Part shown: positions 14,536-56,285 of the stretch, piece after piece
Position numbering within the stretch: position 1 is the first letter of the stretch
Layout: the number at the start of each line of letters is the position of its first letter
Origin: Rhizophagus irregularis
Taxonomy: Eukaryota; Glomeromycota; Glomeromycetes; Glomerales; Glomeraceae
Length of the DNA: 64,000 nucleotides
Direction: 5' to 3'
Assembly (NCBI RefSeq): GCF_026210795.1
Contig: NC_089429.1
Span: 186,001 to 250,000, forward strand
The notes under the pieces: model-generated
What the model was told of the DNA's origin: nothing
Seen by the model: the letters and a program-made list of their open reading frames with translations, nothing else
Databases searched by the model: none
Made by a program: the position numbers and the translations under genes

Positions 14536-14539
14536 TAAT

Positions 14540-14707: not shown

Positions 14708-14974
14708 AGGACCCCGGATATCTAATATAAAGGTCATAATGGACTTTTGGCCAAAAACACCCCTTTTTGCTGAAACTCAAAAAATCGTTTTTTGTAAATA
14801 TCTCAGCATCCAGTAATTCAATTTTAATGAACTTTTTTTTATTTTGTAGCCCTCATTTAGCTCTACAATTTAAAAAAAAGTTCATCAAAATTGGACCACT
14901 GGATGTAAGGATGGCGCCGAAATTGCTTCTCCAAATCTGCAGTATTGCGGATTTAAGAATTGAATTGCGCATAT

Positions 14975-15473: not shown

Positions 15474-15712
15474 TTCTGGACAATTTTGTCCACTTTTTTT
15501 CTATCATTTTTGGACATCCATCGCTTCTGGACAATTTTGTCCACTTTTTTTTCTATCATTTTTGGACATCCATCGCTTCTGGACAATTTTGTCCACTTTT
15601 TTTTCTATCATTTTTGGACATCAATCGCTTCTGGACAATTTTGTCCACTTTTTTTCTATCATTTTTGGACATTCATCGCTTCTGGACAATTTTGTCCACT
15701 TTTTTTTCTTGT
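15474..15712. repeat. ~52-bp tandem array with ggacaattttgtcc core, upstream of the transposase
   Basis: Units read tctggacaattttgtccac, then a T run, then ctatcatttttggacatc and catcgct. There are about four and a half copies. The core is a near-palindrome. The open frames through this array are repeat artefacts. Confidence 0.85.
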
Positions 15713-15937: not shown

Positions 15938-18298
15938 ATGTCAAGCGGTCCTTCTAAGGTAAGCAAAGGTCGACCACCATCAGATGTATGGTGTAATCAT
16001 ATGATACAAGGTAACATGCAGTCGAGAGGACACTATTCAGTGACGTGTAATTACTGTCGATAATACTGGAGACAAGGAAGGCCCCAAGTCCTCAGTGCAC
16101 ATTTGGCAAACCACTGTAAAAAATGCCCCGATGATGTTTCATTGTATTTTGCCAAAATTGTCGGGAAAAATCTTGCTAAAGAAAAGGAAAAAAGCGCAGA
16201 TGAAGATGAATCAGATTATCCTAACAAAAGGGTTCGATAAACGGGAATTAAGAATTTTTACGGAGGAGGTAAAATAGAAAAAGGACGGAGTGATGAATTA
16301 GACCGGGTGATAACGAAAGCCTACGTGATGTGCAACATACCCTTTAGCACAATCGATAATCCTTGGTTTATCGACATGATAAAGGCGCTGGAGCCAGGAT
16401 ACGATTCACCTTCGTGACGAGTACTAAACGGTACTTTATTGGAGGTGGAATTATCCAGAGTCAATGCACGAGTCAACAATGAATTAGAAAAAAAGTCTAA
16501 TTTTACTATCGGTAAATCTATAATTTCTATAATTGCTTCAAAATATTTTATTAAAAAAATAACTATCCATATATTTTTTATTAGCTCTTGATGGTTGGAC
16601 AGACCCTTGAGGGAATAGCTTATGGGCGTTTATTTTGCTGACACCATCGAGAAAGGAATATCTATTACAACTTGAAGACCTTTCTAAAAATTCACATACC
16701 GCTGAATATTTATCAAAAGTTATAAATGATATAATTTGTAAAGTGGGTATAAGCAAAATTGTCGCTATTGTCAGTGACAATGCTGCCAATGTCGCAGGTG
16801 CCCGTCGAATAATCACGAATGAATATCCATCCATTATCAATATACGATGCATCGCCCATTGCATCAATCTGATAAGTAGTGATATTGTCAAAGTAGATCA
16901 AGTTAAATGTCTTGTAAAACGAGCAAATATTTTAACAAGATACTTCAAAAATTCAACCCTTGCCAGCACTTGGCTTAAAGAAGCGATTGATGCAAAAAAT
17001 ATTGCAGGTGGAGGGCTGAAAACGTACATCGAAACAAGATGGATGACAGTCCATGAATGTACATCTTCGGTGTACAGATTAAAAGATGCTTTATTACATG
17101 TACGTATACTTTATATTTAAATTAATAATAATTAAACCTAATACAAAAATGTTTATTCAATTAGGTCCTGGACAATCATGAACGCGAAATCTCTAATGAA
17201 GCTGTAAAAGCAATTTTGAAAAAAAGAAAAAAAGGGTTTTTGATGACATTCGTATTTTATCAGATATTTTGGAGCCGATAAAAAAAGCAATTCTCATGTT
17301 AGAAGGAAGTAATGTAACTTTAGCAGATTGTTATCTGCATCTTCTTCGTATCGCAGCATTTTTTAAGTCAATGCCAACTGATGATTATAAAGAGTTAAGA
17401 AACTCTTGTATTAGCATTTTTAATAAGCGGTAATGTATTAGGTTAGTATCTTTAATAGAAGATTCAAAATTAATGTTTAATTTTAAATATTTTTTTAATA
17501 GATATAAAGAGTTTGACGAGGATATCTATTTATTAGGTTTCTTCCTTCATCCTAAATACCGAGGTAATTATTTTTTTTATTGTTATTTAAATTCATTTAA
17601 TAATATAAATTTGCAAATTTGTTAGGACATGGAATGCGTGATAATCAATTTGAGCGTCTTAGAAAGTGTGCCCTTCGAATCTGGAAAAACCTTGGGCATA
17701 AAAAAAATTCTGGATTAGAACTTGATGCACAACTTCGTGCATACTTTGATAATTCTGAACCATATAACACGTCTTATTCAGTTCATGACACAGCTTACCA
17801 TTGGTGGAATTCCATAGTTGATGGGAAATTTTCTTCTCTTTCGCGGCTAGCTAAAGTAATATTTTCAATAACTCACACTCGGCAAGTTGTGAAAGATTAT
17901 TTTCAGCCATGGGATGGCTTTTTGGTAAGAGACGTATAAATTTGCAACCAGAAACTATAGAGACAATGGCGAAAATATATCTTTATTCTCTCAAACATGC
18001 TAAAAAAGACTTAAATTATACAAGTAACGGTGATAGCAGTTCAAAGTTAGATGATGATATTCAACTCATGCTGAATACAGTATTTGAAGAAGAAGAAGAA
18101 ATTATGAGTGAGAATGATGATGATAGTTTTAATGAACATCAATCTGATGAAACAAATATGAATGATGAAACATTAGATATTGAAAGCACGGTAGATCTAG
18201 GACCATGGGTCTTTATTGATAATTCTATACTTCCAACTATTACTCGAAGATATGATAGTGATGGTGAAGAGGAATGGGATCCGGAACAATTAAACTAA
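15938..18298 (+). pseudogene. hAT-family transposase with BED zinc finger, broken
   Basis: Starts ATG at 15938. An N-terminal BED-type finger (WCNHM...VTCNYC...HLANHCKKCP) is followed by a hAT core with ALDGWTDP (first catalytic Asp), IVAIVSDNAANVAGARR (second Asp) and IRCIAHCINLI. The C-terminal dimerisation region has YHWWNS and, one frame over, SCERLFSAMGWLFGKRR (catalytic Glu). Introns are visible at 16512-16584, about 17100-17164, about 17430-17500 and about 17563-17625. Premature stops lie at 16061-16063, 16238-16240, 16415-16417 and 16608-16610. Frameshifts lie near 17235 (A-rich run) and near 17875. The acidic tail ends at 18298. The gene is clearly inactive although the family signature is strong. 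Confidence 0.92.
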
Positions 18299-18768: not shown

Positions 18769-21242
18769 TTAATGAATTCCTCCCCATAAATTCAACTCTT
18801 CTCTTTTTTTTTGTGCAGTACTATCTGGATTAGCAGTAGACAAGATTTCAGAAAGACGTTCGTTCGACAAACTTGAAATTGATCGACGAGTTTCTAATGT
18901 AGGAACTTGGGACAAAAATACTTCATAATATTCTTGTTTAACGAAAAAATCGCACTTACGGCACCCAGCTTTCGCAAGTTGCGTACTCGTGATTCCTTCA
19001 TTAAATAACCTTCGTAATCGATCACATCCTACCTATTCCTTTGTTCCATTTTGTCGCCAATTTTAAGCACAGACCGCATGAACTGAATAACCCAAGATTT
19101 TGTAGTTTTTATATTATTATTAGGGTCAGTTCTTAATTTTTCTCCAAGTTTAAATAAATCATCATAAATTTGGACCAAGGACACCAAATGTAATAAATTA
19201 AAAGACTCAGCGGCTATAACAAAATTTTCACATTGTAATTCTTGCCTTCGCCATTGATCGATTCGATCTTTAGCAGATTTCTCATCAACGATTTTGACTG
19301 AGTCATCTTTCAGCATTTCATTTAAGTCATTGGATATATCTGATACTTTTAATTCTTCAGAAGCAATGAGTTCGCCATTAAACGATGAATCTGCTAACAA
19401 AATATCGTGAAGTTTCTTTCCCTTTTTGAATAATAACAATTGGGTAGAATTTAATAATTTGGCTTTATCATCGTCGTCATCATTATCATCTGAGAAATTA
19501 CGTTTTCGTACAATGGATTTTGATAACGACACAGATGTTGATGCTTCTAATTCTTCTGATTCCTCCATTTCTGAAGCTAGTGCTTGTGATTCTGCTGATT
19601 CTGCTGATTCCTCCACTGCCATTTCTGAAGGTACTTGTGATTCTGCCACACTTGATTCCGCTGATTTCGCCAATGTCATTTCTGGAGGTACCTTCGCCGA
19701 TGACTTCATTTCTGAAGTTGGTACCCGTGGTTCTATAGATACTATCACTTCTCTAGTTGGCACTTGTGTTGCTAATTTTACTTTAGATGTTATTGATCTT
19801 GTTGGTGGTTTCATCGATGTTTCAACTTCCGTGGTTGATGCTCGTGCTGATGCTGGAACTACTTTGTATTGTGAAGGTGGGTTAAATTCATTAATTTCAC
19901 TGTTGCCAGATTCATCCCTAGTAGAACTTGAATTTGCAGCTTCAGTAGGTTGAAAATTGTTATCCTCATCATCATTAGCAGTACCTAGAAAATTTAGATA
20001 TAAATATTATAAGAAAAATATAATAATCAAGAACAATTTCAGAATTTGATAAATTTAACTTACAGAAGCTACTAATTTTTGCGATCCATTCATCAATGTC
20101 ATCATAATAATTCTTCATTGTGTTCCAGCTGCGGTACGCAGGTAAGGTTGTACTGGCCCACATTATGTCAGAAATAGAAACATCATTTTTTATGTGATCT
20201 TGTCCGCCAAATTTTTCGATACAGCGTATATTCAAATTCGACCAAATTTTTGTTTCAGTGTCAAAAGTAGAAAGATTATTTATGGATAAATCACTGTTTA
20301 ACACACGGGCAAGTTCTGAATCGTTGGGTTTAAGATATAATGACGAGCTGGAAGAGGATTCTAGGCACGTGTGTTCGGGTGTTGAATATTGTAACAATTC
20401 TCTTAATGATTCATTCACGCTACCAGTTGTACCAGATGTAGTTGAACGTGTATTTTCTGGCTATTATTAGAAAATATATAAATAAACAAATAAAATATAA
20501 ACAAAATTAAGATATAAATATTAAAATTCATTCACATATTTACCTGTAAACGAATTACTTCGTATCTACCTTTATATAATTCATATAGCGATTTGTAGCG
20601 TTCAAGTTCAGCCAAATTACCCTAAAAAGTAATGAATTTTGTTCAGAAATGAAATCATTTGTTCTAAAATGAAATGGTTCTGATACCAAGAGAAAAAAGT
20701 GGTCCAGAAACGAAAAGTGGACAAAATTGTCCAGAAACGGAAATTCAAGGGAAAAAAGTGGAACAAAAAAAAATGGACAAAATTGTCCAGAAACGAGAAA
20801 AAGGTAGAACAGAAAAAAGTGGACAAAATTGTCCAGAAACGAGAAAAAGGTAGAACAAAAAAAAAGTGGACAAAATTGTCCAGAAACGAGACAAAAAAAG
20901 TGGACAAAATTGTCCAGAAACGAAAATTCAAGGGAAAAAGGTGGACTGAAAAAAAAATTATAAGCGAAATCAAAATCATTTAAAAAGGGCCTTATGGAAT
21001 ACCTTATTGATGAATGTAAAATCTAAAGCCGATTCTTGCAAGTCAAAATAAACGCGTCTCTCATTCTTTTTGAAAGATAATCTTACTTTATCTTGGTCAA
21101 AATTACATGATTCAATTTTTTTATTAGACTTAGTCCAAATAATTGACAGTGCTAACGAAATTAATTCTTCGTCTTCAGGCAATAGCTCAACTTTTTTTCC
21201 ACGAATCTTTAAATTAAGAGCCGAAGAAGGTGTTTTTGACAT
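18769..21242 (-). CDS. Accessory gene of the hAT element, unknown function (one frameshift)
   Basis: I do not recognise this protein. Exons: 21242-21003 (80 codons), 20621-20544, 20460-20064 and 19984-19029. Junctions are GT...AG and the frame is open for 556 codons to a TAG at 19029. A coherent downstream stretch in the next frame (GCDRLRRLFNEGITSTQLAK, CRKCDFFVKQEYYEVFL, ending LNLWGGIH at 18769) suggests a 1-nt frameshift near 19025 and an original length near 640 aa. Exon 1 encodes a short basic/acidic region (MSKTPSSALNLKIRGKKVEL). Exon 3 is Ser-rich and then holds ASTTLPAYRSWNTMKNYYDD. Exon 4 has Glu/Ser-rich repeats (SEM, AESA), a RKRNFSDDNDDDDD motif that could be nuclear targeting, and a helical C-terminal part. 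Intron 1 contains the 20690-20950 array. Its location between hAT ends suggests a role in transposition, but this is inference. Confidence 0.75.
20690..20955. repeat. gtggacaaaattgtccag array in intron 1 of the accessory gene
   Basis: About five units of aaaagtggacaaaattgtcc followed by agaaacgagaaaaagg-type sequence. Read in the sense of the minus-strand gene, the core is the same as the array upstream of the plus-strand transposase, so both genes have the array near their 5' ends in the same relative orientation. Confidence 0.85.
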
Positions 21243-21545: not shown

Positions 21546-21668
21546 TACGGCACCATCCTTAACTGGATGCCGAGATATTTACAAAAAACGATTTTTTGAG
21601 CCCCTGAAAAATGGGCCAATCTGCCGAAAGTGTGACTTATGACCTGTTTTGGAGATATCCGGGGTCCT

Positions 21669-22150: not shown

Positions 22151-22545
22151 CTAAGAACATAAAGATCAATAAAAACGCGAAAATCAAGGATAAGGTTAAA
22201 AAGGAATCACATCCCAAAGATAAAGAACACAAAGATCAATAAAAAACGCGAAAATCAAGGATAAGATCAAAGGGGAATCACATCCCAAAGATAAAGAACA
22301 CAAAGATCAATAAAATCACGAATATCAAGGATAAGATCAAAGGGGAATCACATCCCAAAGATAAAAAGCACAAAGATCAATAAAAAACGTGAAAATCAAA
22401 AATAAGATCAAAGGGTAACCACATCCCAAAGATAAAGAACACAAAGATCAATAAAAAATGCGAAAATCAAGGATAAGATCAAAGGTAATCACATCCCAAA
22501 GATAAAGAGCACAAAGATCAATAAAAATGCAAAAATCAAAGATCA
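22150..22545. repeat. ~70-bp tandem repeat, 5-6 copies
   Basis: Units contain cacaaagatcaataaaaaac, gcgaaaatcaaggataagat and aatcacatcccaaagataaa. Spacing of cacatcccaaagat is about 66-72 bp. It immediately precedes the exon-like unit array. The open frames here are repeat artefacts. Confidence 0.85.
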
Positions 22546-22559
22546 GATCAGAAATGTTA

Positions 22560-23135
22560 GTAGTGTTCTCAAATCAAAAAAAAAACCAAAAAAGAAACAA
22601 AAAAACAAATGCAAATACTCACTTCAAAGCCAAAATCTGGAATCCAAGTCTGTCCCTAAAGAAAAAGAAAGAAAAGAAAAGGAACATTAGTAGTGTTCCA
22701 ATCAAAAAAGAAAAAGAAACAACAAACAACACAAATACTCACTCCAAAACCGAAATCTTGAGTCCAGTAATATCCGAGTACATTCCTAAAGAAAAGAAAG
22801 GAAAAGGAACGTTAGTAGCGTTCCTAAATCAAAAAAAATACCAAAAAAGAAACAAAAAAACAAATGCAAATACTCACTTCAAAGCCAAAATCTGGAGTCC
22901 AAGTCCGTCCTTAAAGAAAAAGAAAGAAAAGAAAAGGAACATTAGTAGTGTTCCAAATCAAAAAAGAAAAAGAAACAACAAACACAAATACTCACTCCAA
23001 AACCGAAATCTTGAGTCCAGTAATATCCGAGTTCATTCCTAAAGAAAAAGAAAGGAAAAGGAACGTTAGTAGCGTTCCTAAATCAAAAAAAAAAGAAATA
23101 AAAAATAACGCGAATACTTACTTCAAAGCCATTTT
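22560..23135 (-). repeat. Array of splice-site-bounded micro-exon-like units, minus strand
   Basis: Read on the minus strand, short blocks of about 33 and 43 nt alternate. One ends ...ATTTTGGCTTTGAA, the other ...GATTTCGGTTTTGGA. Each is preceded by a pyrimidine tract plus tttctttag and followed by gtgagtattt or gtaagtattc. The ~85-90-nt spacers carry palindromes such as ggaacactactaatgttcc, placing ACTAAT/ACTAAC about 35 nt before the acceptor. The two-unit block (about 245 bp) is repeated about twice. The block at the upstream end reads ATGGCTTTGAA then gtaagt. Whether it is spliced or translated is unknown. Confidence 0.65.
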
Positions 23136-23149
23136 ATTTTTTTTTCTTT

Positions 23150-24515
23150 TTATCAGTCAGGACCCCTTTTTTTGTAGGGCGTTGGATCCTTTTTCTTTTT
23201 TTGATAGGTCGGTACTTTCTTGCAGGACGACGCTACGGGATTCTTTTTTTTTTGTAGGTCAGTTCGGTATTCTCTTTCTTGTAGGATGATGCCCCGGGAT
23301 TCTCTTCTTCTTTTTCTTTTTTTGTAGATCAGTTCGTAGGTTCAGTTCGGTGCTTTTTTCGCTCTGAGATTCTTTCTTTTTTTTGTAGGTCGTTCATATC
23401 CTTGTTATCATCACCAAGTACTTCAGTTTCGAATAATCAAATGAATTTGGATATTTTGGATGATCAAGGAAATTCTCAACCTCAATCCCAACCATCACAA
23501 GAAACCGAGGTTGAAATAAACGTCAAAGCTTATGGGTCTTCGAGAGTTGCATGTTCGATGTTCATCGTCTATACCTTTCGTTTCGGACTAACGACGATGT
23601 CGTGCAATAACTGGGTCAGTAAAAAATTCATAACCTAAAATTTCGCTGATCTTGGGTCAGGAAAAAAATACGTACCATAGCTATAGAGTTCTTTTCTTTT
23701 TTGTAGGTCAGTTCGGTATTCTCTTTCTTGTAGGACGACGCTTCGGGATTCTTCTTGTAGGACGACGCTTCAGGATTCTCTTTCTTGTAGGACGACGCTT
23801 CGGGATTCTCTTTCTTGTAGGACGACGCTTTCAGGATTCTTTTTCTTTTTTTATAGGTCAGTATTCGGTATTCTTCTATCGGGTTCGTATTTTCTCTTTC
23901 TTTCAATTTCCCTTTCGTTAGAAGTTTCTAACCTCTCTCTTTTTTTTCTTTAGGTCAGTCCTTTTTTCAGCATCGGAATCCGGGTAGGTAGAGCACTTTT
24001 TCTTTCGCTTTCCTTTAGTTAGAGGTTGCTAACTCCTTCGTTTTTTTTTCTTTAGGTCAGTCCTCTTTTCAGCATCGGAATCCGGGTAGGTAGAGCCCTC
24101 TTTCTTTCATTTTCCCTTTAGTTAGAGGTTGCTAACCTTTTCTTTTTTTTTTCTTTAGGTCAGTCCTCTTTTTGGTCAGTCCTCTTTTTAACGCGAGATT
24201 CCAGGTAAGTCTTTCTTTGTTTTCGCTTGTTCCGCTTTATTTTGTTTCATTTCGTTTTTCATTCGTTATAACCTCTACCCTCTCCATTTAGGTCCCGGTT
24301 CTTTCGGCTCTTCGACCCTAAGGCCTAAGGTGCGTTTTTTGTTTCGTTTTGTTTGTGTTGTTTGTTTTGTTTCGCTTTTCGCTCGTTCTTACCTTTACTC
24401 TCTCCATTTTAGGTCTGGCTCTTCGGCTCTAAGGTGTGACTTGTTTTCGTTTTTTGTTTGTTTTGTTTTGTTTTTCGTTCGTTTTAACCTCTACTCTCTT
24501 TCCATTTAGGTATGC
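23150..24515 (+). repeat. Array of micro-exon-like units, plus strand, diverging from the minus array
   Basis: 23150-23400 and 23690-23850 hold repeated gtaggacgacgcttcgggat units after T/C-rich tracts (3' splice-site-like). At 23.93-24.2 kb units run ctttag, GTCAGTCCTCTTTTCAGC, ATCGGAATCCGG, then gtaggtagag. Further units follow at 24.29, 24.41 and 24.51 kb, each after ccatttag. Spacers carry gttagaggttgctaac, again a stem enclosing a CTAAC branch-like core. The block at 23405-23620 has an open frame with NNQMNLDILDDQGNSQPQSQ and could be a real larger exon (ending before gtcagtaaaa); I do not recognise the peptide. Confidence 0.6.
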
Positions 24516-25126: not shown

Positions 25127-25639
25127 TTTTTATTTATTTTTGCAGGGTGCCTGATTGGTAATTATAAAATGGCCTCAATTATGCAGGGTAAGGTTATCAA
25201 TAGGGTACCTATTTGTTTGTAACTGAATATTAATAGGATTAACCTTATTGTTATCCAGCTTTTTTTTATTTACTTGTTAGATTAACCTATTGTTATCCAT
25301 TTTTCTTATTAGGTAGCTTACCGATTGATGTCATTTTGGTTAATTATATTAATTTATACATATAATTTATTAAAAAGTAATCAATAGGCTATATCTGATT
25401 GTAAAAAAAAATTAAAATATAGAATCAATACATGCTTTCGATTAATTCCAAATTGCTACTTAATTTATCAATTTATTATATTAGATTTATATTACACGCA
25501 ATTAATTAATTACATTAACATCATTTTCTCTACATTTCTGTACTAAAAACTAAAGCTAATTTACTCTTTTCTCTACTATTTGTTGTTAATGGTTTAGACA
25601 TTGTTCCAGTTGGTTTAATTTCAACAAACAACTATTTAA

Positions 25640-26800
25640 ATTCGTGTTTAGGCTCAGGAACTTGTAGTCCTACAAAAAGTAGAAAAGCGAAAACGTTCAG
25701 TTAGTTAGTAATGTTTCGTTAGGAAAAAGAATAAAATTTTAAAGAACTTTGAAGAATACTTTCGAAGTTCCATTCAGGAAACACCCAAGAAACCATAGAC
25801 TATAAAAAGAAAATACGTTAGTAAAGTTCTATTAAAAAACAAAAAAATAATTGAAGTTTCAAAAAGAAAATATTTCTTTTTGAAATTTACCATTCTGCCC
25901 AAAGGTCCCAACTGATACCTACAAAATAGAAAAAAAAAATTAAAAAAAAATAATTGAAGTTTTGAAAGTAAATAATACTTTCACACGTCTTGGTAGAATA
26001 TTTGAAGGAAATGATGAAAATAATCGATTATTTGTAAAAGTTAAAGAAAACAAAATTTACTATTCTGCTCAAAAAGATCCTAACTGATACCTACAAAATA
26101 GAAAAAAAAAAATTTTAAAATTAATTGAAGTTTTGAAAGTAAACATTTGAAATTTACTATTCTGCTTAAAGGTTTCAACCGATACCTATAAAATAAAGAA
26201 AAAAATTAAAAAAATAATTAGTTTTGAAAGTAAATAAAACTTTTAAAACTTACTATTTCGCCCAAAGGTCCCAACCGATACTTACAAAATAAAGAAAAAA
26301 AATTAAAATTAAAAAAAAATTAAAGTTTTGAATAAACTTTTCGAAACTTACTATTTCAAAAATCCTAACTGATAACTACAAAATAGAAAATAAAGTTAAA
26401 AAAAAAAATTATTTTTTAAGTTTTGAAAAGAATAAACAAAACTTTTCAAAACTTACCGTTCCAAAGGCTCCAATTGATACCTACAAAATAGAAAAATAAA
26501 GTTAAAATTCTTAATACTACTTAATTTAAATTAGTATTAATAAGGCTTGATTTTTAAATTAAACCTTACTTATTATCTAAAAAAAATATGAACATTAGTT
26601 AACGTTTATTAATTAGTCAAAAAAAAATTAATTTTTTTCGAAGATAAAAAATAGGAGTCCAGAAGGCTTTCTTTATCTAAAAAAAAAATACAAACATTAG
26701 TTAATATTCATCAATAATTAATTAAAAAAAATAATTTAATTTTTTTCAAAAGGGTTTATTTTTGAAATGGGAGTCCAAAAAGCTTCTTTTATTTAAAAAA
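25640..26800 (-). repeat. Micro-exon-like unit array, minus strand, block 1
   Basis: Examples of exon-like blocks: 25891-25918, 26061-26090, 26158-26185 and 26254-26280, with others near 26352 and 26460. Read on the minus strand they share GTATCAGTTGGGACCTTT or close variants. Acceptors are ctattttgtag and donors gtaaatttc/gtaagttt. Spacing is about 85-140 nt. The blocks are more alike than the spacers around them. Block lengths (27-30 nt) do not keep one reading frame. Confidence 0.65.
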
Positions 26801-27359
26801 AAAAGAAATACAGTCAACTCTCTTTATAGTCACACATTTGGGACAGTCCATATTTGGTGATTATAAAGAGATGTGACTATATAAAAAATTTCTTATATTT
26901 GTATATCATAATTCCTGCCAAAAATTAACATAATTTTAGCCAGAATTATACTTAAAACTTTATTGTATCATAACTTCGCCAATATTAATCGTAGAGTGAT
27001 GATCTTACCGCCATTCGATTCGTCTTGATGAGACGGTTCTAATGGTATAAAATACGTCGAAATCCAATCACTAGATTAATTTCCGAAATTAAAAAAATAT
27101 TAATGGTTTTTGTGTAATAACTCTGCCAATATTAATTGTAGAGAGATGATCTTACCGCCATTCGATTCGTCTTGATGAGACGGTTCTAATGGTATAAGAT
27201 ACATCGAAATCCAATCACTAGATCAATTTCCGAAATTAAAAAATATTAAATGGGTTTTAAGTAATAACTCCGTCAATATTGATCACAGAGAGATGAGCTT
27301 ACCACCATTCGATTCGTCTCGATGAGGCGATTCCAACGAGCTATAAATCGTCTTTTTAC

Positions 27360-28326
27360 TTTGCTATGTTTACGGCCAGACCACCCATTGCCTCTTTTTG
27401 AGACTAATCTCGGGTCTGTGTCCTATCATCTTCAATGGGCAACCATTATACCGAGTACTTAATTCCTCAGGTAACAGCACCACTATAGAAGACATCCCCC
27501 ATCGGGCCATTTAAGGCTGATCTGAAGCTAGGTACACGCCGCCTACTCATCCTATACCCATTGCATGATACTGATACTCAATTTATTTTACGACCTTTAG
27601 AGAGCATCTACTTTCATGGAGGACTTTCGACAGGTAACATCAACCATCTAGTACCCTTCCATACCACCATTTTAGGTACTAAGTCTCACTCAGCCACTAC
27701 AGCCCGCGATTACCTAGCACCGATAGTACAGTTGTTTACCCCAAGTGGTATACTTTGTAGTGACCACTCGGACAGGAAGTAGCAGGCATCTGTCCAGGAT
27801 CACCCCTTATGGTGGGTATCAACCACCTAGAGATCTAAGCCTAGGGCCAAAGAGTAGGGAATCAAGCCGCAAAATAGCTACCTGTTACGTGCACGAACAC
27901 CTTGGTTGGTCTAAGACCTAACAGAAGGTCTAACTACCACTAAGACATTGCACCCTCAGCTTTACCATCTAGGACGACCATCTAGCCATTACTGACCCCA
28001 AGTGGTATCGTGGAGTGACCACCCGGACAGGAAGTCCAGGTATAGTAGTGACGCAGGGACAGGGACTGCGCACGTGCCAATGGCCTCATAGGGAACGTTA
28101 GAAGGACACCATGACCCTTAGTTGAAATGTGCAGCCTAACTGTACACACTAATTCACCATGATGCAGTCCAACTACACTAATCCCTGTACCTTCACGCTA
28201 TTGGTTGTAGCGTCGCAGTAAAATTCTTTTTATTTCCGTGGTCATGGGAATTGAACCTGCGACCTCACCATACTCAGGCTTAATGAGGGTCTCAGTGACT
28301 AACCACTGAGATAGGGTGACCAACCC
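27360..28326 (-). mobile_element. SINE-like retroposon, 967 bp, tRNA-related head
   Basis: Flanked by a perfect 19-bp direct repeat, ctataaatcgtctttttac (27341-27359 and 28327-28345), as left by target-primed reverse transcription. On the minus strand it begins with a tRNA-like head (28326-28236) and continues for about 875 nt of non-coding body. The body is far richer in G+C than its surroundings and contains an imperfect internal duplication (ccccaagtggtat ... gtgaccac-cggacaggaagt at about 27736 and 27998). No long A-tail is seen. It is very long for a SINE. Confidence 0.82.
28236..28326 (-). ncRNA. tRNA-like Pol III promoter head of the SINE
   Basis: On the minus strand: ggttggtcaccctatctcag, then tggttagtcactgagacc, ending ggttcaattcccatgaccac. 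The B box GGTTCAATTCC is a perfect consensus and tatctcagtgg resembles an A box. Ends ttggtca and tgaccac can pair as an acceptor stem. The middle is too long and irregular for a functional tRNA, so it is scored as a tRNA-derived promoter. Confidence 0.75.
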
Positions 28327-28759
28327 CTATAAATCGTCTTTTTACAATCACTAGGTACTGAGAAATCTAGCAAAATGTTAAATGGCGCAGTAAACGTAAA
28401 TCAAGAAATATTATAATGCCGATGTTCAACATTTTGTTGAATAACTCGTCAGCCAGTGATCGGAAAAGGATAAAACTACCACCATTCGATTCGTCTCAGT
28501 GAGACGATTCTAACAAGCTATGATACATCTTTGTACGATTATTAGATGCCAAGTTATTTAATATATTCTTTATATAACTGCGATTATAAACGGTTCTTTT
28601 TAATATAAGATTTTTGAGGATAGGTGTGATAGTGACTATAGATAGATTGTGACTATATAGGATAAATTTTAATAATAAAGTGTTTTGAACATTCAACTGG
28701 TGTGACTATATAGTAGAATGTGACTATAACGGGAGTGACTATAGAGGGAGTTGACTGTA

Positions 28760-29280
28760 CGAACATTAATTAACATTCGTCAATAAATTAATTAAAAAAA
28801 AATTTTAATTTTTTTTGAAGTAGAAGGCTTCCTTTACCTAAAAAAAAGAGATACGAATGTTAGTGAATGTTTATTTAAATAAAAAAGAAAAAAAAATTAG
28901 AAGGTTAAATTTACCTTCAATATGGAAGTCCGAAACTTGTCTTTCAGCTTCCTTTAAAAAAAATTCAAAGTTTTACTTCAAAATGGAAGACTCAGTCCTT
29001 ACTCCGGTTTTCTGTCCTTAAAAAAAAAGACAAAATGTTAGTTAACATTTCACTAAATAAAAAAAATACAAAAAAAAAACAGAATTTCAAATTTTACCTT
29101 TGAAATTCTGTCCAGAAGGTGCCTGAAAAGCTGTAAGCCTATAAAATAAAATAAAAATCAAAATGTTAGTAACATTTCACTAAAATAAAATAAAAATAAA
29201 ATAAAAAATTTGAAGTTTTACTTTTGAAATTCGTCTAGAAACTGCCAGAACCCTACGATAAAAAAAATCAAAAAAATCGG
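28760..29280 (-). repeat. Micro-exon-like unit array, minus strand, block 2
   Basis: Same organisation as block 1, interrupted from it by the TA element. Units near 28925-28965, 29000, 29100 and 29225 have blocks ending in donor gtaaatttaac, gtaaaacttc or similar on the minus strand. Spacers contain aatgttaactaacattttg-type palindromes. Confidence 0.55.
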
Positions 29281-29284
29281 AATG

Positions 29285-29573
29285 TAATGTTTGGAATCAT
29301 GTAACAGTTATTCGAATAACTTAAGTATATTCGAGTATTCGAATAAGCATAGTGGTTATTCAAGTATTCATTTAGCCAGATATAGTATAGTTAAAATTCT
29401 AATTCAGCATTAAATCCTTAAATTTAACTGAGTTAAAATCATAATTCAGGCTAAAAATTATGTAAATCATTACTATAAAAGGAGATTTAACTTATTCAAA
29501 TATTATTCGAATACACTTTATAAATTTAAATGAATACTCAAGTATATTCGAATATATTCGATTCCAAACACTA
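29285..29573. mobile_element. 289-bp hAT-type MITE
   Basis: The inverted ends taatgtttggaatc and gattccaaacacta are flanked by the 8-bp direct repeat tcggaatg (29277-29284 and 29574-29581). The interior is rich in attcgaata motifs near both ends. No ORF. Confidence 0.85.
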
Positions 29574-29579: not shown

Positions 29580-30270
29580 TGTTAATAAACGTTCTGATAA
29601 GAAGAATTAAAAATAAAATCAAAACGCTAAAAAATGTTTCGATATAAAAAAAATTAAAAATTCAAAACATTAATTAATGTTTTGATATAAAATTCACAAA
29701 AAAAAATGAATCAAAACGTTAAAAATGGTTCGATATGAAAAAAATCAAAAATTTAAAATGTTAAAAATGGTTCGTTTAAACATCAAAAATAAAATTGAAA
29801 CATTAAAAAACATTTTGATATAAAGAAAAATTCAAAATTCAAAATGTTAATTAACGTTTTGATATAAAATTAAAGAAAAAAAATGACTTGAAATATTAAT
29901 TAACGTTTCGATATGAAAAAAAATTAAAAAAAAATTTGAAACGTTAAAAACATTTCATTTAAAAATCAAAAATAAAATCAAAACATTAAAAAACGTTTTG
30001 ATATAAAGAAAAATTAAAATTTGAAACGTTAATTAATGTTTCGATATAAAATTAAAGAAAAAAAATGAATCAAAATGTTAAAAAACATTTCGCTAAAAAA
30101 ATCAAAAGATCTGAACGTTAACAAACGTTTTGATAAATTTTTTTAAAATAAAATTTTGAAATGTTTTTTAATGTTTTGATAAAAAAGTCAAAAAATCAGA
30201 ACGTTAATAAACGTTCTGATTAAAGTAAAATTTTGAAACATTAAAAAACATTTCGATATAAAATTTATTC
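29580..30270. repeat. Array of short palindromes (aaaacgttaattaacgtttt family)
   Basis: Dozens of bases apart, variants of tcaaaacgttaattaacgtt/ttgat recur: aaacattaattaatgttttg, gaaacgttaattaatgtttc, gaacgttaataaacgttc and others. Each is a hairpin of about 20-24 bp joined by A-rich linkers such as gatataaaaaaaattaaaaa. The array is non-coding and appears to be the spacer palindrome of the neighbouring micro-exon units multiplied on its own. Confidence 0.7.
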
Positions 30271-30699
30271 TTTCAATCTGGATAGCCTAAATTTTTACAT
30301 AGTTATCAACTGGGTATATGCCCTATTGATTACTAATTTTTGGCTAACCTATTAGTTTAATAGTTACCAATAGGGTATATGCCTGATTTTTCAGCTTTCG
30401 ACTTGTAAGGAATCCTTAAGGATATTTTTTATATTTATTTATTAATTTTATTTATTTATTTTATTTTTTATTTATTATTTAAAATTATTTTATTTGTATA
30501 TTTATTTGTATATAATTTATAATTAATTATATTATTACATAGTATTCTCTTTAATTAATAATATTTTTACAATTAGCACGAAAAATTATTTCTTTGGCTT
30601 AAAATTTTGATTAAAATAAATATAATTATAAATTCATGTTTTTGTTAATTTATTACTCATTTTTATAAAAATTTAAAAATAACATTCCTTTAAATATGT

Positions 30700-32900
30700 A
30701 CTATTGGTACTAAGTGAATAAATAAGTTTGTTTTGTTTAGTTGTGAGTTTCCTTTAACTTCTAAAAAAAATAATAAGAATAGTTAATAAATTTATAAAAA
30801 AAAAACAAAACAAGAATATTAAAATTTACAAATCTTTTTCCATCTTTGAAAATCCATCTAAAGCCTACAAAATAATAAAAGAACAGTTAGTAAACTGTTT
30901 CTATTAAATGTAAAAAAAATAACAAAAGACTAAGATTCAATCGTGACTCATAGTATTTATGATTCTTAGTTCATTTTCTATTGAAATCCACCAGAAACCT
31001 ATAGAAAAAAAAATAAAATAATATTGAATAATAGTTAGTAAATCACTTTATTAGAAAAAGGCTAAGTTCATAATACTTACAATTTTCAATTGAAATCCAT
31101 CCAAAATCTATAAAAAAAAAATAAAATAAGTGGTAGAGTTATCACTTTATTAAAATAAACAATAAAAAAAACTAAGTTCACAATACCTACGAATCTTATT
31201 TTTTTCTGTCAAAAGTCCATCCAAAACCTATAAAAAAAGAATGATTAGTATTTAGTAAATCGTTCTATTTTATTAAAAAGTAAAAAAAACTAAGTTCGTA
31301 ATACTTACAAATCTTAGTTTTTTTCTGTCAGAAGTCATACAAAATCTATAAAAAAATAATAAATAAAAACGTTACATTTTATTAAAAAAAGCAAAAAAAA
31401 ACTAAAATTTGATTCATACTTACAATTCATGAATCTTTTCTCTTTTCAATCAAAATCCATCTGAAACCTATAAAAAAATAAATAAATAAAAACGGTTAGT
31501 AAAAAAAAATAAAATAAAAAAAAATTAAGTTTGTAATATTAAATTACGAACCTTTAGTTCTTTTCAATTCTCAAAAGACCACCCAAAGCCAGTAAAAAAA
31601 TAAGATTTTTTTAAAAAAAATTGAAAAAAAATTTGCTTTTCAAATTTTTGAAACCTTACCTACTGATGCATAATAAAATATCGAAGCCTAAAGACTCAAA
31701 GTCTAAAAAATTTCGTGTCTAAAGAGCTGAAGTACCATGAATTTTTGAAAGACACAAACCTCATTTTAAATTTACCATTCAAAAATTTAGACCTTTAGAA
31801 GCCTGTCTTTAAGAAAAAAAATAAAAAGAAACATTAGGACGTTTTTATAATATAAAACATGTAACTCTTTAACTTACCATTTCAGAATTCCATGCTAAAA
31901 TCTAAGTACAGGCCGTCTCTAAAGAAAAACAGGTTTAAAGAAAGTTTCTTTTTAAGTAATTCAGAAAATATTTTTTAAAAAAAATCATTTAAAATAAAAA
32001 TAAATGATTTTTTTTTAAAAATTAAACATAAAAAAAGTAATTTTTTTTTAATGATTCAGTTAAAAAAAAAAGCTTTAAAAAAAAGATTATCGATAGATTA
32101 ATAAGTCATATAATCTATGATATTCTGATAATATCATCTTAATAAAAAATGAATAGTTCATTAGTAATATTTGTTAATATAAAAATATATATATATATTT
32201 TTTCTTTTACTTACCAGTATTCCATAATACCACATTTAGAAAACTTAAAAACCATTAAAAAAAAGAAAAAGTTATTAAAATAAAAAAATTAAATATATAT
32301 TTTTTTTTAATTACCAAATTTTCGTATCCAATGTCTTAAAAATACCTAAAATAAGAAAATAATAAACAATTAGAATTCGTTAAAAAAAAAGAAAAAAAAT
32401 TTTTTTTGGTACCTGTCAAATCCTACCAACATCTAGAGAGATTATAAGAAACTACTTAAAAAAAAGAAATAAACGAACATTTAGTAATGTTCATTAAAAT
32501 AAAAAAAAAATAATAAAAATCTTTTTCTTAATGAATATTCATGTTGAAAAAATCTACTAAGAAAATAAAGAAAAATTAAAAAGTTTTTTACTTACTTAAT
32601 TCCGCATTGGAAAACTCAAACAAATACCTAAAAAAAAAGAAGACAAACAATTAGTAATGTTCGCTAAATAGTAATTTTTTTCAACTTTTTACTCACCACG
32701 TTTTCATATCTATAAAATCGAAAATAAATCCTAAAAAAAGAAAAAATAAATTAGTAATGTTCATTAAAGTAAATAATGAAAAAATGAAAAAAATATCTAC
32801 CATAACACTATATTCAAAGAGCTTGAAAGTCACCTAAAAAAGGTAGAAAAAATGTTAAGTTTTTTTAAAAAAGTATGAAAAGAGAAAGAGAAAAGTATAT
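30700..32900 (-). repeat. Micro-exon-like unit array, minus strand, block 3
   Basis: From 30.76 to 31.6 kb the minus strand shows blocks such as GGTTTTGGATGGACTTTTGA after tttttttatag and before gtaagtattg/gtattgtgaa. Further blocks continue to about 32.85 kb (for example near 31.78, 31.90, 32.22, 32.62 and 32.70 kb). Related blocks occur on the plus strand at 51.5-51.85 kb. Spacers are extremely A/T-rich, with cattagtaatg-type palindromes near 32480, 32650 and 32755. Confidence 0.55.
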
Positions 32901-33319
32901 AGGAAAGAATATGTAAAAGAAGAAGAAAAGGAAAATTACGTATGAAGGGTAAAAGAGAAAAAAAAGATCAATTAATTTTTTTTAAAACTTTATTTTTGAA
33001 TCGATAAATCACATGATATCGAAATAGCTTTGTAACACATTTGTAGATCATTTTACGTGAAAATAAAATTGATTTTTAGTATAGAAGAATCCTTAAAGTT
33101 TTTTTATTAGGAATCCTTAAAGATCCTATAAGTTACAGAATCTTTAAAGATCCTTAAGATTTGTTAAGGGATTTTTAAGGAATCTATAAAATACCAGATC
33201 CCTAAGGATTTTATAGCAATTTATAAAATCTTTAAGGATCTGTGTCTTAAAAAATTTACTGATGAATGTGCGCATTCTGCACATAATTTAAAATTTGAAT
33301 TTTCAACACTGACTGTAGA

Positions 33320-50758: not shown

Positions 50759-51299
50759 GCAGTAATCCACAATTTCACAATCACATAATTCGTTGTCTTA
50801 ACGTCTTTCATAAAATATCATTATTCATTACAAAATCTAAAAGTATAGAAAAAGAAACATTAATAAAATGATTCTAAAGAAAAAAGATTATCTTCTCAAA
50901 TTTATACTTTTCAAAAAAAAGTCTGGTTGAAACTTATAAAGAAAAACTTAAGTCCAATTTAAAAAAATAAAAAATTTGAATTCAAAAACTGTGATCAAAG
51001 TCTATAAACAGAAATTCTGAATCAAAATCAAAGCCAAAGTTTGAATCAATCCTATAAAAGATAATCAAATAGCCTACAAAAAATAAAAATAAAATCCAAA
51101 GTACAGTTCCCCTCGATATAACGAATCTTACATTCTGGCTGATTAGGCCTTTTTTATAAGCAACTTTGTTAACACTATAACGAATTATTCAGTATAGTAT
51201 AATGAATTTTTTGGTATAGATATGTCAGTCATACAGATCATGTGACTTGTCAATCTGATTTACCGATTATTTAATTTTTTTTATTACTAATATTTATTT

Positions 51300-51935
51300 A
51301 TTTTATTGTAGAGAACTTTCTGGACTTCGAAATGGACGTCTGGAATGAGAAGTAAGTGGAGGTTTAGTTTTTTTATTAATTTCGTTTAAAAACGTTTATT
51401 AATGTTCTTTTTTTCTTTATTTTTTTTTAGAGACAGCTCCTAGGTTTAAAGAACTAAGGTTTGTAGTTATTACGAACTTAGTTTTTTTTGTTTTTTTTTA
51501 CTAACCGTTTTTATTTATTTATTTTTTTATAAGTTTTGGTAAGCTTTTGAGAATAGAAAAAAACTATTCGTAGGTATTACAAACTTAATTTTTTTTTGTT
51601 ATTTTTTTTAATAAAGTAGGACAGTTTACTAACCGTTATTCTTATTTATTTTATTTTTTATAGGTTTAGAATGGATTTTAATTGAAAAAGAGCTAAAATT
51701 CGTAAATATTATAAACTTAGCTTTTTTTTGTTTCTTTTTTTTATTAGTAATTAACGGTTCATTATTTGATCTTATTTTATTTTTTTTTAGGTTTCAGGTG
51801 GATTTCGATGGAAAAAGTGCTAAGAATTGTAAGTATAAATCAAATCTTTCTTAGTTTTTTTTTTGTTTTTTTTAATAAAGTGGACTGTTTTTATTTATTT
51901 TTTCTTATAGATTTTAAGCAGACTTTTGACTAGAG
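51300..51935 (+). repeat. Micro-exon-like unit array, plus strand
   Basis: Blocks: 51312-51351 (40 nt, before gtaagtgg), 51431-51458 (28 nt, before gtttgtag), then near 51533, 51663 and 51791 (before gtaagtat). Acceptors are tttttttttag, ttttttatag and similar. Spacers of about 75-110 nt carry aaaacgtttattaatgttc-type palindromes. The blocks at 51.66 and 51.79 kb resemble the minus-strand blocks at 30.8-31.6 kb, so the two arrays are inverted relatives. Confidence 0.6.
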
Positions 51936-52640
51936 CTCCGCACAGGTTAGGTTAGTTTGGGTTAACTGGTTAATCTGAACTGAAATTTTTATTCAGGTCA
52001 AATCGGGTCAGGTAAACTGTTCTGACTTGACTCGACCCATTTGATCTGAAAGTATTCAGATCACTTTAGGTAACTCGGATTACCCGAAGTTTTATTATTA
52101 AATATTGTAAAAAAATGTTTTGTAACGTTTTTTACTTTTTGTTTTTATATATAAAACGCTGAAACTATTTGTTTTGGCATTTTTCCTTTTGATTTTACAT
52201 ATAAAAACGCTGAAACTGATAGTTTCAGTATTTTTTTTAATTTTACATGCAAAAATGCTGGAATAATTAGTTCCAGCATTTTTCCTTTTGATTTTACATG
52301 TAAAAACACCAAAATTATTAGTTCTGGCGTTTTTCTTTTGATTTTATATGTAAAAATGCTGAAACAGATAGTTTCAGCATTTTTTTTCAATTTTACATGT
52401 AAAAACGCCAGAATAATTAATTTCAGTATTTTTCTTTTTGATTTTACATGTAAAAACACTGAAACAGATAGTTTTGGCATTTTTTTTTGATTTTACATGT
52501 AAAAGCGCCAGAATAATTTGTTCAAGCATTTTTCTTTTTAATTTTACATGTAAAAATACTGAAACTAATAGTTTCAGCATTATTTAATTTATTTGACCCA
52601 AATATATGTCAGGTCAACAGGTCAGGTCAGGTAGGATCCT
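51935..52640. repeat. caggt-rich repeat enclosing a ~58-bp satellite of palindromes
   Basis: Starts ctagagctccgcacaggtt (compare 14385) and ends in caggtcaggtcaggt. Between them (52141-52590) about eight units of ttttacatgtaaaaa followed by cgctgaaacagatagtttca run in tandem; both parts of each unit are self-complementary. The open frames on the minus strand are repeat artefacts. Confidence 0.8.
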
Positions 52641-52914
52641 ATCTACTACTAGTAAGATATATTACCAGTAGAAATTTTACTTTCATATGAAACCTTACCT
52701 TAGCATTTACTTAAATTCTATTGGTTAATTGACTAAAAAGGAAAAAAATTATAACAATGTAACATAAAATTTCCTTTTATAGTAGGATCTTCAAAGAGTT
52801 TTATATGTAAATCTTACCTTAGACCACAGGGTGACCTATCTTAATAGTAGACGGGGTTCTGGTTGGGTACCGACTAGTACTGAGAACTTTACTTCTAACG
52901 AAAAAAGAATTAAC

Positions 52915-53210
52915 AGGACTCCGGATATCTAATATAAAGGTCATAATGGACTTTTGGCCAAAAACACCCCTTTTTGCTGAAACTCAAAAAATCGTTTTTT
53001 GTAAATATCTCAGCATCCAGTAATTCAATTTTAATGAACTTTTTTTATTTTGTAGCCCTCATTTAGCTCTACAATTTAAAAAAAAGTTCATCAAAATTGG
53101 ACCACTGGATCTTCGAGATATTTACAAAAAACGATTTTTTAATTTTCTAAAAATGGGCCAATCTGCCGAAAGTGTGACTTATGACCTGTTTTGGAGATAT
53201 CCGGGGTCCT
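52915..53210. mobile_element. AGGACC-family palindromic MITE, 296 bp
   Basis: The ends aggactccggatatc and gatatccggggtcct are flanked by gaattaac (52907-52914 and 53211-53218). The core atctcagcatccagtaattc is mirrored by ggaccactggatcttcgaga. Same orientation as the split copy at 14708. Confidence 0.93.
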
Positions 53211-53218
53211 GAATTAAC

Positions 53219-53595
53219 TAAGATTCGTAAGTACTAGTACAATTAAATTTTAATCTTTTTTTATTTTTTTAATAAAGTGAAACGGTTTACTAACCGTTCT
53301 TTTTTTATTTTATAAACTTCGATTCAAGTGGATTTTCAAAGATGGAAAGAAGATTCATAAGTGCAAATATGAATTTTAGTCATTTTTTTAGTTTTTTTTA
53401 TAAATTTACTAACTGTTTTTATTTTTTTTTTTAGAAATTTCAGTGGGTGGATAATATCAAAAAAAGAAACTTGCAACTAAATGAATCAGATTTATTCGCT
53501 TAGTACGTATTTAAAGGGATGTGGTGACATGTATGTGTGAGTGGTTTCTTTTGTTAAAACGTTTACTAACACTTTTAAATTTTTATAGAAATGAG
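53219..53595 (+). repeat. Micro-exon-like unit array, plus strand, between two MITEs
   Basis: Continues the 51.3-kb array: a block before gtaagtac near 53228, one of about 45 nt near 53320-53360, and one after tttttttttag near 53432. Spacers include agtgaaacggtttactaacc, with a TACTAAC branch-like core. Confidence 0.5.
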
Positions 53596-53888
53596 AGGAC
53601 CCCGGATATCTCCAAAACAGGTCATAAGTCACACTTTCGGCAGATTGGCCCATTTTTCGGCCAGTAAAATTGTTTTTCAGAAATATCTCGACATCCAGTG
53701 GTCCAATTTTGATGAACTTTTTTTTAAATTGTAGAGCTAAATGAGGGCTACAAAATAAAAAAAGTTCATTAAAATTGAATTACTGGATGCTGAGATATTT
53801 ACAAAAAACGATTTTTTGAGTTTCAGCAAAAAGGGGTGTTTTTGGCCAAAAGTCCATTATGACCTTTATATTAGATATCCGGGGTCCT
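53596..53888. mobile_element. AGGACC-family palindromic MITE, 293 bp, opposite orientation
   Basis: The ends aggaccccggatatc and gatatccggggtcct are flanked by gaaatgag (53588-53595 and 53889-53896). Its sequence is the reverse complement of the 52915 copy, 385 bp away. Confidence 0.93.
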
Positions 53889-53889
53889 G

Positions 53890-54476
53890 AAATGAGCAAT
53901 AAATTAACAAAATAAAAATGCGAATTTATAGTTGTATTCAAATCAAAATTATTGTAAAAATTATTATTAATTAAAGAGTAATAATAATATAATTAATAAA
54001 TAAATAAATATAATAAATAAATAAAATTAATAAATAAATATTAAAAAATTCTTCGTTTTACTGAAAAAAAAAATTTGTTATAAAAAAATCTTTTATATCA
54101 AGTGGCATTTTATATATGCAATTCATTCACTTTACTTCATATTACATTATACAGTAAATAATAGTAATTTCGTTATATAAAGGGTTTTTTTTATATTTAA
54201 ATCGGTATCACACTGAAAATCTGTTATATTGTGTTATTCGCTATATTAAGGTTTGTTGTTAAAGTTGCTTGGCTAAATTCATTTTAACTTTTGACAAAAG
54301 TCTAAACTTTAATTAGTAATAGTTTAAACTATGACAAAAGGTTTCGATAATAACTAAATGTCTAAACTATGTCTAAACTTTCTAATTAATAAAATTTAAA
54401 ATAAATAATTATTAATACATTATTATATATATTTAAATAAATAAATATTATATATTAATTAACAATTATTAATAAA
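53890..54476. other. AT-rich interval
   Basis: Contains one pogo-like half-palindrome (tttcgttatataaaggg ... ttcgctatattaaggtttg) at 54165-54255; otherwise nothing. Confidence 0.35.
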
Positions 54477-54675: not shown

Positions 54676-55009
54676 TACTAGTAATAATATATAAAAAGTA
54701 AAATTATAAAACTGGTTATTAATTAAACTTACTATATGTTTTAATATATATAATAATTTAAATAATTAATATAATGTATATTAAATTTTATAATTGCAAA
54801 ACTGGTTAAATTTATATTAAATTATATAATTTATTATAATAAATGGTAAACTTTATTAATTACTATGTAAAAATATATCTAAATCTTTCACAGTTTTACC
54901 AGTTTCGTCAGTTTCACAGTTTTGCAAATTTTTAATTTTTTAATAAAATGTTTCAACTAGTTTCAATTTTAACAATTGTCTAAACTACTTAGTTTCGCTC
55001 AACAACTTT

Positions 55010-56200
55010 ATTTGTTGTAGAAAAAGGTGATTGTAGAAGTTTAAAATACTCACAAAAAAGAAAATTTCAAGATAAAATGAATTAAAGTAACTATAAAAAG
55101 AAAATCCAAGTTAAAAGTTAAAGTAAACTACAAAATAAAAACAAAATTAAAAGTGATCTCTAAAGCTGAAGTTTAAAATGAAATAACCTACAAAATGAAA
55201 ATTTTTCAAAATCTAAGCTAAAATCAAAATAAAATAACTTATGAAAAAAAACAAACAAACTGAAGTTAAATTGAAATTAAAGTTCAAACTAAACATCTTA
55301 GACTAGAATCGAACTAATGATTAAAAAAATTAAAAAAATTAAATGAAGTTAAAGCCCTACAAAAAAGAAAAAGAAAATTGAGTTCAAATTTGACTTAAGT
55401 ATAAAAAAGGAAAAGAAAATATAAGTCTAAATTCAAAGTTAAAGCCCTATAAAAAAGAAAGAAAATCCAAGTCTAAGGTCGAAATGACGAACCTACAAAA
55501 AAAGAAAAAAGAAATTCCAATTCTGATAAAATGTTAGTGTAATATTTCATAAAAACAAAAAAAAAATGGATTTTGAAATAAAACTTACCAAGAATCTAAA
55601 ACTGAACTTGAAGGAACTTACAAAATAGAAAAACAATGAAACTTTAGAATAATTTATAAAAAAAAAGGAAAAAATTAAATTTCTAAGCGAAATTTACTCA
55701 AGATATCCAAGGTGAAGCCGGATTCTACAGAATAAAAAAGAAAAGTTTAGTTTTGTTAAAAAAATAATTAATAAAATATAAAAAAAAGATTTGTCTATAA
55801 ATTCAATATGAAACTTACAATCCAATCCAAGGAGTCTAATCCAAAAAGAAGCTGGCATTTACGAAAAAAAAAAAAAAATATTTAGTTTTTTCAAAAAAAT
55901 TTAAAAAAAATGTTTTTTTGAAATTTCAATGTAAAACTTACTGATCCAATCCAAGAAGGCTAGGAGCTAACACTTACAAAAAAAAGAAGAAATATTTAGT
56001 TTTTTCAAAAAAATTTAAAAAAAATGTTTTTTTGAAGTTTCAATATAAAACTTACTGATCCAATTCAAGAATGCTAGGGGCTGACACTTACAAAAAAAAG
56101 AAGAAATATTTAGTTTTTTCAAAAAAATTTAAAAAAAAATATTTTTTTAAAGTTTTAATGTAAAACTTACTAATTCAATTCAAGAAGTTTATTAGTCCAA
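55010..56200 (-). repeat. Micro-exon-like unit array, minus strand
   Basis: On the minus strand, acceptors ctttttttgtaag or ctttttttgtag precede short blocks (for example near 55.85, 55.95 and 56.07 kb, with ATTGGATCAG/ATTGAATTAG starts) followed by gtaagttttac. Three almost identical ~125-bp units lie at 55.80-56.17 kb. Farther left (55.0-55.7 kb) the blocks are more diverged. Confidence 0.55.
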
Positions 56201-56209
56201 AGTAGGGAT

Positions 56210-56285
56210 TGGAATCGATTTTACAATAATCGAATTTATCGAAAATCGATAAGAATCGATTTTAAATCGATTATCGAATAAAAAT
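56210..56285. repeat. Cluster of aatcgatt palindromes
   Basis: At least five overlapping aatcgat/atcgatt motifs in about 75 bp, between the micro-exon array and the 3' end of the LINE. It could be half of a MITE cut by the LINE; the mate was not found. Confidence 0.6.

Follow-up and report, generated by a model that had tools for sequence, protein, structure and literature searches.

Divergent arrays of micro-exon-like blocks as candidate members of a dispersed micro-exon-train family in Rhizophagus irregularis

Two arrays of short exon-like blocks run away from each other in a 64,000-nucleotide stretch of AT-rich eukaryotic DNA from Rhizophagus irregularis, the window of this report. Array E occupies positions 23132-22560 of the minus strand and array F positions ~23157-24515 of the plus strand. 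The blocks are 21-46 nt long, with a pyrimidine tract and AG on one side and a GTRRGT-like donor on the other, which confirms the layout described in a sequence-only reading of this DNA. That reading treated E and F as isolated, but seven such 'trains', here called A to G, are counted in the window. E and F are tentatively regarded, with a confidence just short of even, as belonging to a family of micro-exon trains with dispersed members, that is, as predicted transcription units that would be spliced now or would have been spliced recently. The best reading of the train unit is an exon of ~20-46 nt together with a spliceosomal-type intron of ~65-100 nt, duplicated in tandem. The trains look as if they had grown by tandem duplication of exon plus intron and had then partly decayed, most copies having apparently decayed as coding sequence.

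Arrays E and F and their junction

The repeat of array E is a 255-bp unit, present in 2.1 copies with 95% matches according to the tandem-repeat finding, and it holds one 43-nt and one 33-nt block. The earlier proposal that exon-intron-like units were duplicated in tandem is therefore supported. GTGAGT stands directly 3' of all four E blocks. The acceptor AG of block 2 reads AA, and the adjacent AAG would give a block of 32 nt instead of 33. The features of array E are:

22560..23132, minus strand: train E, a tandem 255-bp double unit with four micro-exon-like blocks and one truncated block
23122..23132, minus strand: truncated block at the E/F junction, of the same type as E block 2 (ATGGCTTTGAA followed by GTAAGT)
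22996..23038, minus strand: E block 1, 43 nt, TTTAG / GTGAGT
22878..22910, minus strand: E block 2, 33 nt by homology, GTGAGT donor
22743..22785, minus strand: E block 3, 43 nt, TTTAG / GTGAGT
22623..22655, minus strand: E block 4, 33 nt, TTTAG / GTGAGT

Downstream of the last branch-like hairpin of E lies a 71-bp tandem array (22153..22550, minus strand). It makes up most of an AG-free run of 417 nt (22569-22152, minus strand), which ends at TTCTTAG (22152-22151). This run is the longest of its kind in the window, and 30 shuffles reach 342 at most.

Array F is less regular. Its proximal part (23.16-23.86k) is mostly acceptor-like and contains ten sites with a pyrimidine tract and AG, together with four GTAGGT sequences, three of which overlap an acceptor TAG. 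The array is interrupted by non-repetitive DNA at ~23400-23690. On the plus strand this segment has an open frame including MNLDILDDQGNSQPQSQPSQETEVEINVKAYGSSRVACSMF, with no Pfam match at E 0.05. The features of array F are:

23157..24515, plus strand: train F, acceptor-rich in its proximal part to ~23860, followed by well-formed distal units
23954..23983, plus strand: F block, 30 nt, CTTTAG / GTAGGT
24056..24085, plus strand: F block, 30 nt, CTTTAG / GTAGGT
24159..24204, plus strand: F block, 46 nt, CTTTAG / GTAAGT
24292..24329, plus strand: F block, 38 nt, ATTTAG / GTGCGT, a weaker donor
24413..24433, plus strand: F block, 21 nt, TTTTAG / GTGTGA, a weak donor

Chains of splice sites were scored with weights that represent a general consensus and are not fitted to this genome. 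The best chains score 71.1 in E and 64.2 in F. In 40 dinucleotide shuffles of the window, read on both strands, the mean maximum is 9.3 and the largest value is 15.2; such shuffle contrasts overstate the significance of a single array, because the copies inside one array are not independent. A simpler exon scan of the window gives 24 matches compared to 3.0 expected.

The divergence of the two arrays had been attributed to a shared central promoter near 23.14 kb. This is unsupported, as only 24 bp lie between the first acceptor of the plus strand (23157) and the minus-strand ATG (23132), and these 24 bp are the pyrimidine tract and CAG of array F. The first minus-strand unit of E is a copy of the unit with the 33-nt exon, cut at 23131, the position from which it can be aligned locally with the unit of E block 2. 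That the alignment begins only at 23131 suggests a rearrangement junction. A shared bidirectional promoter at 23.14k is rejected on the 24-bp gap and the truncated exon at the junction. The arrangement points to a head-to-head joining of two arrays by rearrangement, which would explain the divergence of E and F without a shared promoter.

Related trains in the window

The other five trains, and the short upstream element ATCATGTGACTTRTCRAT that precedes three of them, are positioned as follows:

32150..33050, minus strand: train A, a chain of three micro-exon-like blocks (score 35.9), weaker blocks, and ACTAAT/ACTAAA branch-like elements
30400..32114, minus strand: train B, nine curated blocks, a terminal block and a tail; homologous to C
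51237..54053, plus strand: train C, a dispersed homologue of B, interrupted from ~51930 to ~53210
25600..29350, minus strand: train D, two groups of blocks (29.25-28.8k and 26.7-25.65k) with an interruption of other repeats between them (~28.75-26.96k)
55000..56250, minus strand: train G, a 114-bp tandem repeat with two 31-nt blocks, followed by units that have diverged
32097..32114, minus strand: upstream element ATCATGTGACTTRTCRAT with 3 mismatches, 5' of train B
33000..33017, minus strand: upstream element ATCATGTGACTTRTCRAT with 1 mismatch, 5' of train A
51237..51254, plus strand: upstream element ATCATGTGACTTRTCRAT with 0 mismatches, 5' of train C

The stretches with this layout extend over 33.0-32.15k in A, 31.9-30.7k in B, 29.3-25.6k in D, 51.3-53.5k in C, which is split by an insertion, and 56.2-55.0k in G. 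The chain scores of these trains are 38.0 for B, 35.9 for A, 24.7 for D, 9.9 for C, and 12.6 and 12.2 for G. Five of the seven trains (E, F, B, A and D) exceed the shuffle maximum of 15.2, whereas C and G alone score below this value in the 40 shuffles of the window. C is counted as a train because it aligns to B and the two have a common tail, and G because of the two 31-nt blocks with GTAAGT in its tandem 114-bp unit. B and C are dispersed homologues: the seven best-scoring alignments show 64-74% identity, both trains have the terminal block and an A-rich tail, and the tails align as far as 30418/54053 with 61% identity. The simpler exon scan places 22 of its 24 matches in trains, on the sense strand, although one of the 22 (53392) overlaps the end of C and is not a curated block. 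The remaining two matches are at 5638 and 44972.

Visual inspection first showed the element ATCATGTGACTTRTCRAT in front of trains A, B and C, and the pattern was thus picked after its copies had been seen. With at most three mismatches it occurs three times in the window compared to 0.41 expected, and none of 100 shuffles has three occurrences. Every match is on the sense strand and upstream of a train; within three mismatches, the window contains none for D, E, F or G. Judged from these elements and from the tails, trains A-C resemble units that have a start, and for B and C an end seems to be present too.

The curated blocks number 53, several with approximate ends; 25 of them have AG and GT at their stated ends, including four with weak donors. 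The motif TGGA[CT]T is present in 17 of the 53 blocks and in five of the seven trains, compared to a mean of 2.7 and a maximum of 8 in shuffled blocks (500 shuffles), but it was picked post hoc, its copies within a train are not independent, and the shuffles also reach five trains. The excess hints at one ancestral exon core, and the seven trains may have a single ancestor.

Several other elements share the window with the trains. A tRNA-like sequence with a GGTTCAATTCCCAT box at 28350-28220 (minus strand) was read by eye and is not called by ARAGORN; it may be a SINE that interrupts train D. The long open frames at 57101-63640 (minus strand) appear, by eye, to be non-LTR retrotransposon-like. 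There is a DUF659 match at 16611-17120 (plus strand), presumably the remnant of a hAT-type transposase. Related repeats, several of them highly similar or inverted, are located at 21562-21668, 52906-53213, 53587-53891 and 14530-14906. They look like one mobile element family, and segments 14705-14904 and 52912-53110 are 98.5% identical over 200 bases.

Splice signals, hairpins and reading frames

The trains have a spliceosomal layout, in which a GT donor, a branch element and a pyrimidine tract with AG follow each other in this order at intron spacing, although some units are without a donor or an acceptor. The sole ordinary gene with which they were compared is the HIRA gene at the left end of the window (Pfam HIRA_B and Hira). 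It has 19 introns of 60-235 nt, and its joined exons give a 984-codon frame. The median intron length is 83 in the trains (n=27, lengths approximate) and 73 in HIRA (n=19), with P=0.13. The trains have stronger donors (median score 9.5 compared to 3.2, P=0.0001), longer pyrimidine tracts, higher acceptor scores (median 11.9 compared to 3.3, P=1e-6) and closer matches to TACTAAC (median branch score 3.6 compared to 0.2, P=0.008), but the comparison is biased because the trains were found by splice score, and it drops four of the 27 donors and three of the 27 acceptors, where the coordinates missed GT or AG.

Conservation was analysed in 27 units (11 from B and C, six from D, five from G and five from A; E and F were left out), and columns of the same array with the same consensus base served as the control. 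In the homologous column, GT is intact in 23 of the 27 units and AG in 18. Over these units of the four arrays, the donor GT is better conserved than matched columns (0.85 compared to 0.61, P=0.0006), as are donor positions +3 to +6 (0.80 compared to 0.61, P=0.0002), with a slight advantage to donors stemming from the choice of a reference unit with a good donor in each array. The acceptor AG is no better conserved than matched columns in the same 27 units (0.61 compared to 0.57, P=0.31). For B and C by themselves, P is 0.04 for GT and AG combined and is not below 0.1 for either one singly. The check on whether splice-site bases are kept better than other positions thus gives a mixed result in arrays A, B+C, D and G, positive for the donor and negative for the acceptor AG. 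These values are moderate evidence that the donors may be under constraint, and they provide none for the acceptors.

The same values bear on the strong rival of the micro-exon-train reading, a non-functional satellite. Exon-intron segments of old genes would have been amplified by tandem duplication and dispersed, the splice-like signals would be inherited and unselected, and nothing would be spliced now. This is a real possibility, although not the favoured one. The partly broken donors and acceptors, at the counts given above, are consistent with it, as are the acceptor AG conservation no higher than that of matched columns, trains that keep no reading frame, and a window with many tandem arrays (TRF reports 125 overlapping rows) and many palindromes. 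A satellite accounts less well for donor bases that exceed their matched columns, for the same order of donor, branch element, pyrimidine tract and AG across trains with different exons, and for train signals that are stronger than those of the HIRA gene.

The sequence-only reading had also placed branch-point-like elements (ACTAAT/CTAAC) in stems. Short stems with TACTAA-type elements are present, but they tell less than that reading assumed, since HIRA introns show one too. In array E, the spacer upstream of each of the four blocks contains a GGAAC[A/G]-CTACTAA-[T/C]GTTCC stem of 6-7 bp, and in array F the spacers before the first three blocks (23954, 24056 and 24159) contain GTTAG..CTAAC stems. 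Within train coordinates, stems of at least 6 bp are found at 9 of 44 CTAA[CT] sites on the sense strand and at 3 of 24 on the antisense strand, and outside them at 8 of 228 sites (train sense compared to outside, Fisher P=0.0003), the independent count being smaller than nine because four of the stems are E copies and one (52565) is in the array interrupting C. HIRA introns have a CTAA[CT] site in 4 of 19 cases; one of these four has a stem of at least 6 bp and two have a stem of at least 5 bp. Perfect stems of 4-10 bp are present somewhere in the HIRA introns.

Different trains have different stems around the shared TACTAA core: GGAACG/CGTTCC, GGAACA/TGTTCC, AAATGTT/AACATTT, AACAGTT/AACTGTT and AACGGTT/AACCGTT. 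RNAalifold finds a double change in 1 of 15 pairs of the E alignment and no structure in the D alignment. Within-array covariation is thus weak, and it is only the comparison of stems between trains that suggests covariation. The folding energies of the introns are not clearly below those of shuffles (train means z -1.44 to +0.25, HIRA +0.26).

Palindromes are frequent in the whole window, with 68 found compared to a shuffle mean of 37.1 and a largest value of 43 (10 shuffles). The interruption of C contains a ~50-bp tandem palindrome array (52130-52590, plus strand) with changing stems (TGCTGGAA..TTCCAGCA and TGCTGAAA..TTTCAGCA). More palindromic tandem arrays are located at 29605-30135, 15474-15709 and 20687-20958 (AACGTTAATTAACGTT-like; TGGACAATTTTGTCCA-like). 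Because of the window-wide excess of palindromes and the changing stems in the interruption of C, a DNA-level process may explain the stems. The hairpins may then derive from that process and need not serve splicing.

The 25 blocks with AG and GT at their stated ends have lengths that leave 0, 1 and 2 modulo 3 in 8, 13 and 4 cases; for the 21 blocks with good donors the counts are 7, 11 and 3. The longest open path weakly exceeds exon-shuffled controls in B and C, where 2 and 4 of 60 shuffles reach it, and is not above such controls in A (20 of 60), D (34 of 60), E (10 of 60), F (47 of 60) and G (18 of 60). A simple protein-repeat array is rejected on the block lengths and frames. A known RNA family is rejected as well, with 0 Rfam matches at the gathering threshold in the whole window. 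Scans of IMG/VR with four patterns returned one match for the palindrome (in L001, taken as chance) and 0 for the other three, and scans of GTDB with two patterns returned 0 matches.

A splice layout present without a kept reading frame would also suit spliced non-coding transcripts, in which the product is an RNA or the act of splicing itself matters. This alternative overlaps with the micro-exon-train reading and is considered unlikely in its own right. In a variant of it, block starts of the form AG/GT could permit stepwise removal, as in recursive splicing. GT is found at the start of 13 of the 25 intact blocks compared to 3 of 19 HIRA exons (Fisher P=0.025, although the blocks of an array are not independent), but the sequence after the acceptor reads GTATC, GTTTT, GTTTC, GTTTA or GTC, none of which is a good donor.

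The weakest alternative, which also overlaps with the micro-exon-train reading, is that E would be a live protein-coding micro-exon gene with repeated YYWTQDFGFG / WIPDFGFE motifs. In E, the ATG and the four blocks form a path of 54 open codons, so that the frame is open through five blocks, provided that splicing to block 2 takes the AAG acceptor; the probability of this path is 0.043 under shuffles of its four blocks. Such a gene is nevertheless very improbable. The ATG is at the rearrangement junction, and the other copies can be aligned only from the base that follows its A. The path uses two different frames for the block-2 type, and in the wider path test described above 10 of 60 shuffles reach the E path. 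For the peptide, Pfam gives nothing above the cut-off and one match below it (E=0.11). A protein from E is not claimed, because its ATG sits at the E/F junction and because of the Pfam result.

Known systems and significance

On the micro-exon-train reading, a probable course of growth and decay can be proposed. Unequal exchange would multiply one exon-plus-intron unit within a transcription unit, and strong donors, branch sites and pyrimidine tracts would keep the tiny exons recognisable. The number of units and the exon sequences would drift, with a fast turnover of exon sequence, exon number and frame. Copies of the trains would disperse and then decay. A more far-reaching and rather doubtful version is that these are fast-evolving dispersed fungal micro-exon trains in which selection would act on the splicing layout rather than on the frame, and in which hairpins might hold the branch sites. 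Such trains would make variable or non-coding spliced RNAs.

The closest known systems in layout, as they are portrayed in PMC5825161 and PMC9168663, are the micro-exon genes (MEGs) of schistosomes and the bicycle genes of aphids. In Schistosoma MEGs, exons of 6-36 bp form most of the coding region, and micro-exon duplication and shuffling have been proposed (PMC5825161). These exons are symmetric, and nearly all of the genes encode secreted or membrane-anchored proteins according to the same account. The candidate exons of the trains fit this short-exon layout. Exon symmetry is absent from the trains, however, where only 8 of 25 blocks (7 of 21 with good donors) are multiples of 3 and no frame is kept, and the organisms belong to different kingdoms.

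Bicycle genes contain many unusually small internal exons, and their sequence turns over fast while the structure is kept; one of the genes described with them, megacycle, has more than 100 microexons (PMC9168663). The trains resemble them in their many small candidate exons and, probably, in a fast sequence turnover with a kept structure. Almost all internal exons of bicycle genes start in phase 2, as reported in PMC9168663, whereas the block lengths of the trains are mixed modulo 3 (8/13/4), so that there is no single common phase. The trains are therefore not placed among either the MEGs or the bicycle genes, since they have neither the exon symmetry of the former nor the uniform phase of the latter.

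Three fungal systems resemble the trains in some respects. In a stwintron, an internal intron is nested in a splice element of an external one. The sister stwintrons and symmetrical introns of Hypoxylaceae are multiplied introns with palindromes and inverted repeats, integrated at separate places in genes, and their terminal inverted repeats measure 45-55 nt as described in PMC8469720. The trains are also multiplied and contain palindromes, but they consist of tandem exon-plus-intron units with short stems at the branch element. The SP7-like effectors of arbuscular mycorrhizal fungi combine tandem repeats and introns, as the trains do, but encode hydrophilic protein repeats in the account of PMC11333574, unlike the trains, which are without a kept reading frame. 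Xlr2 of Trichoderma virens, a filamentous fungus, has a microexon with regulated inclusion; as presented in PMC11121469 it concerns the microexon of one gene only. A literature search that covered few subscription journals found no fungal element of this layout described.

Families with many micro-exons are known in schistosomes and aphids, where they encode secreted proteins, and fungal microexons have hardly been described. If the trains are spliced, they would be a fungal case of genes built by tandem duplication of exon plus intron without a kept frame. If they are unspliced, they would represent an intron-bearing unit that has turned into a satellite and yet keeps most of its donors, which would call for caution when genes are predicted in genomes of this kind.
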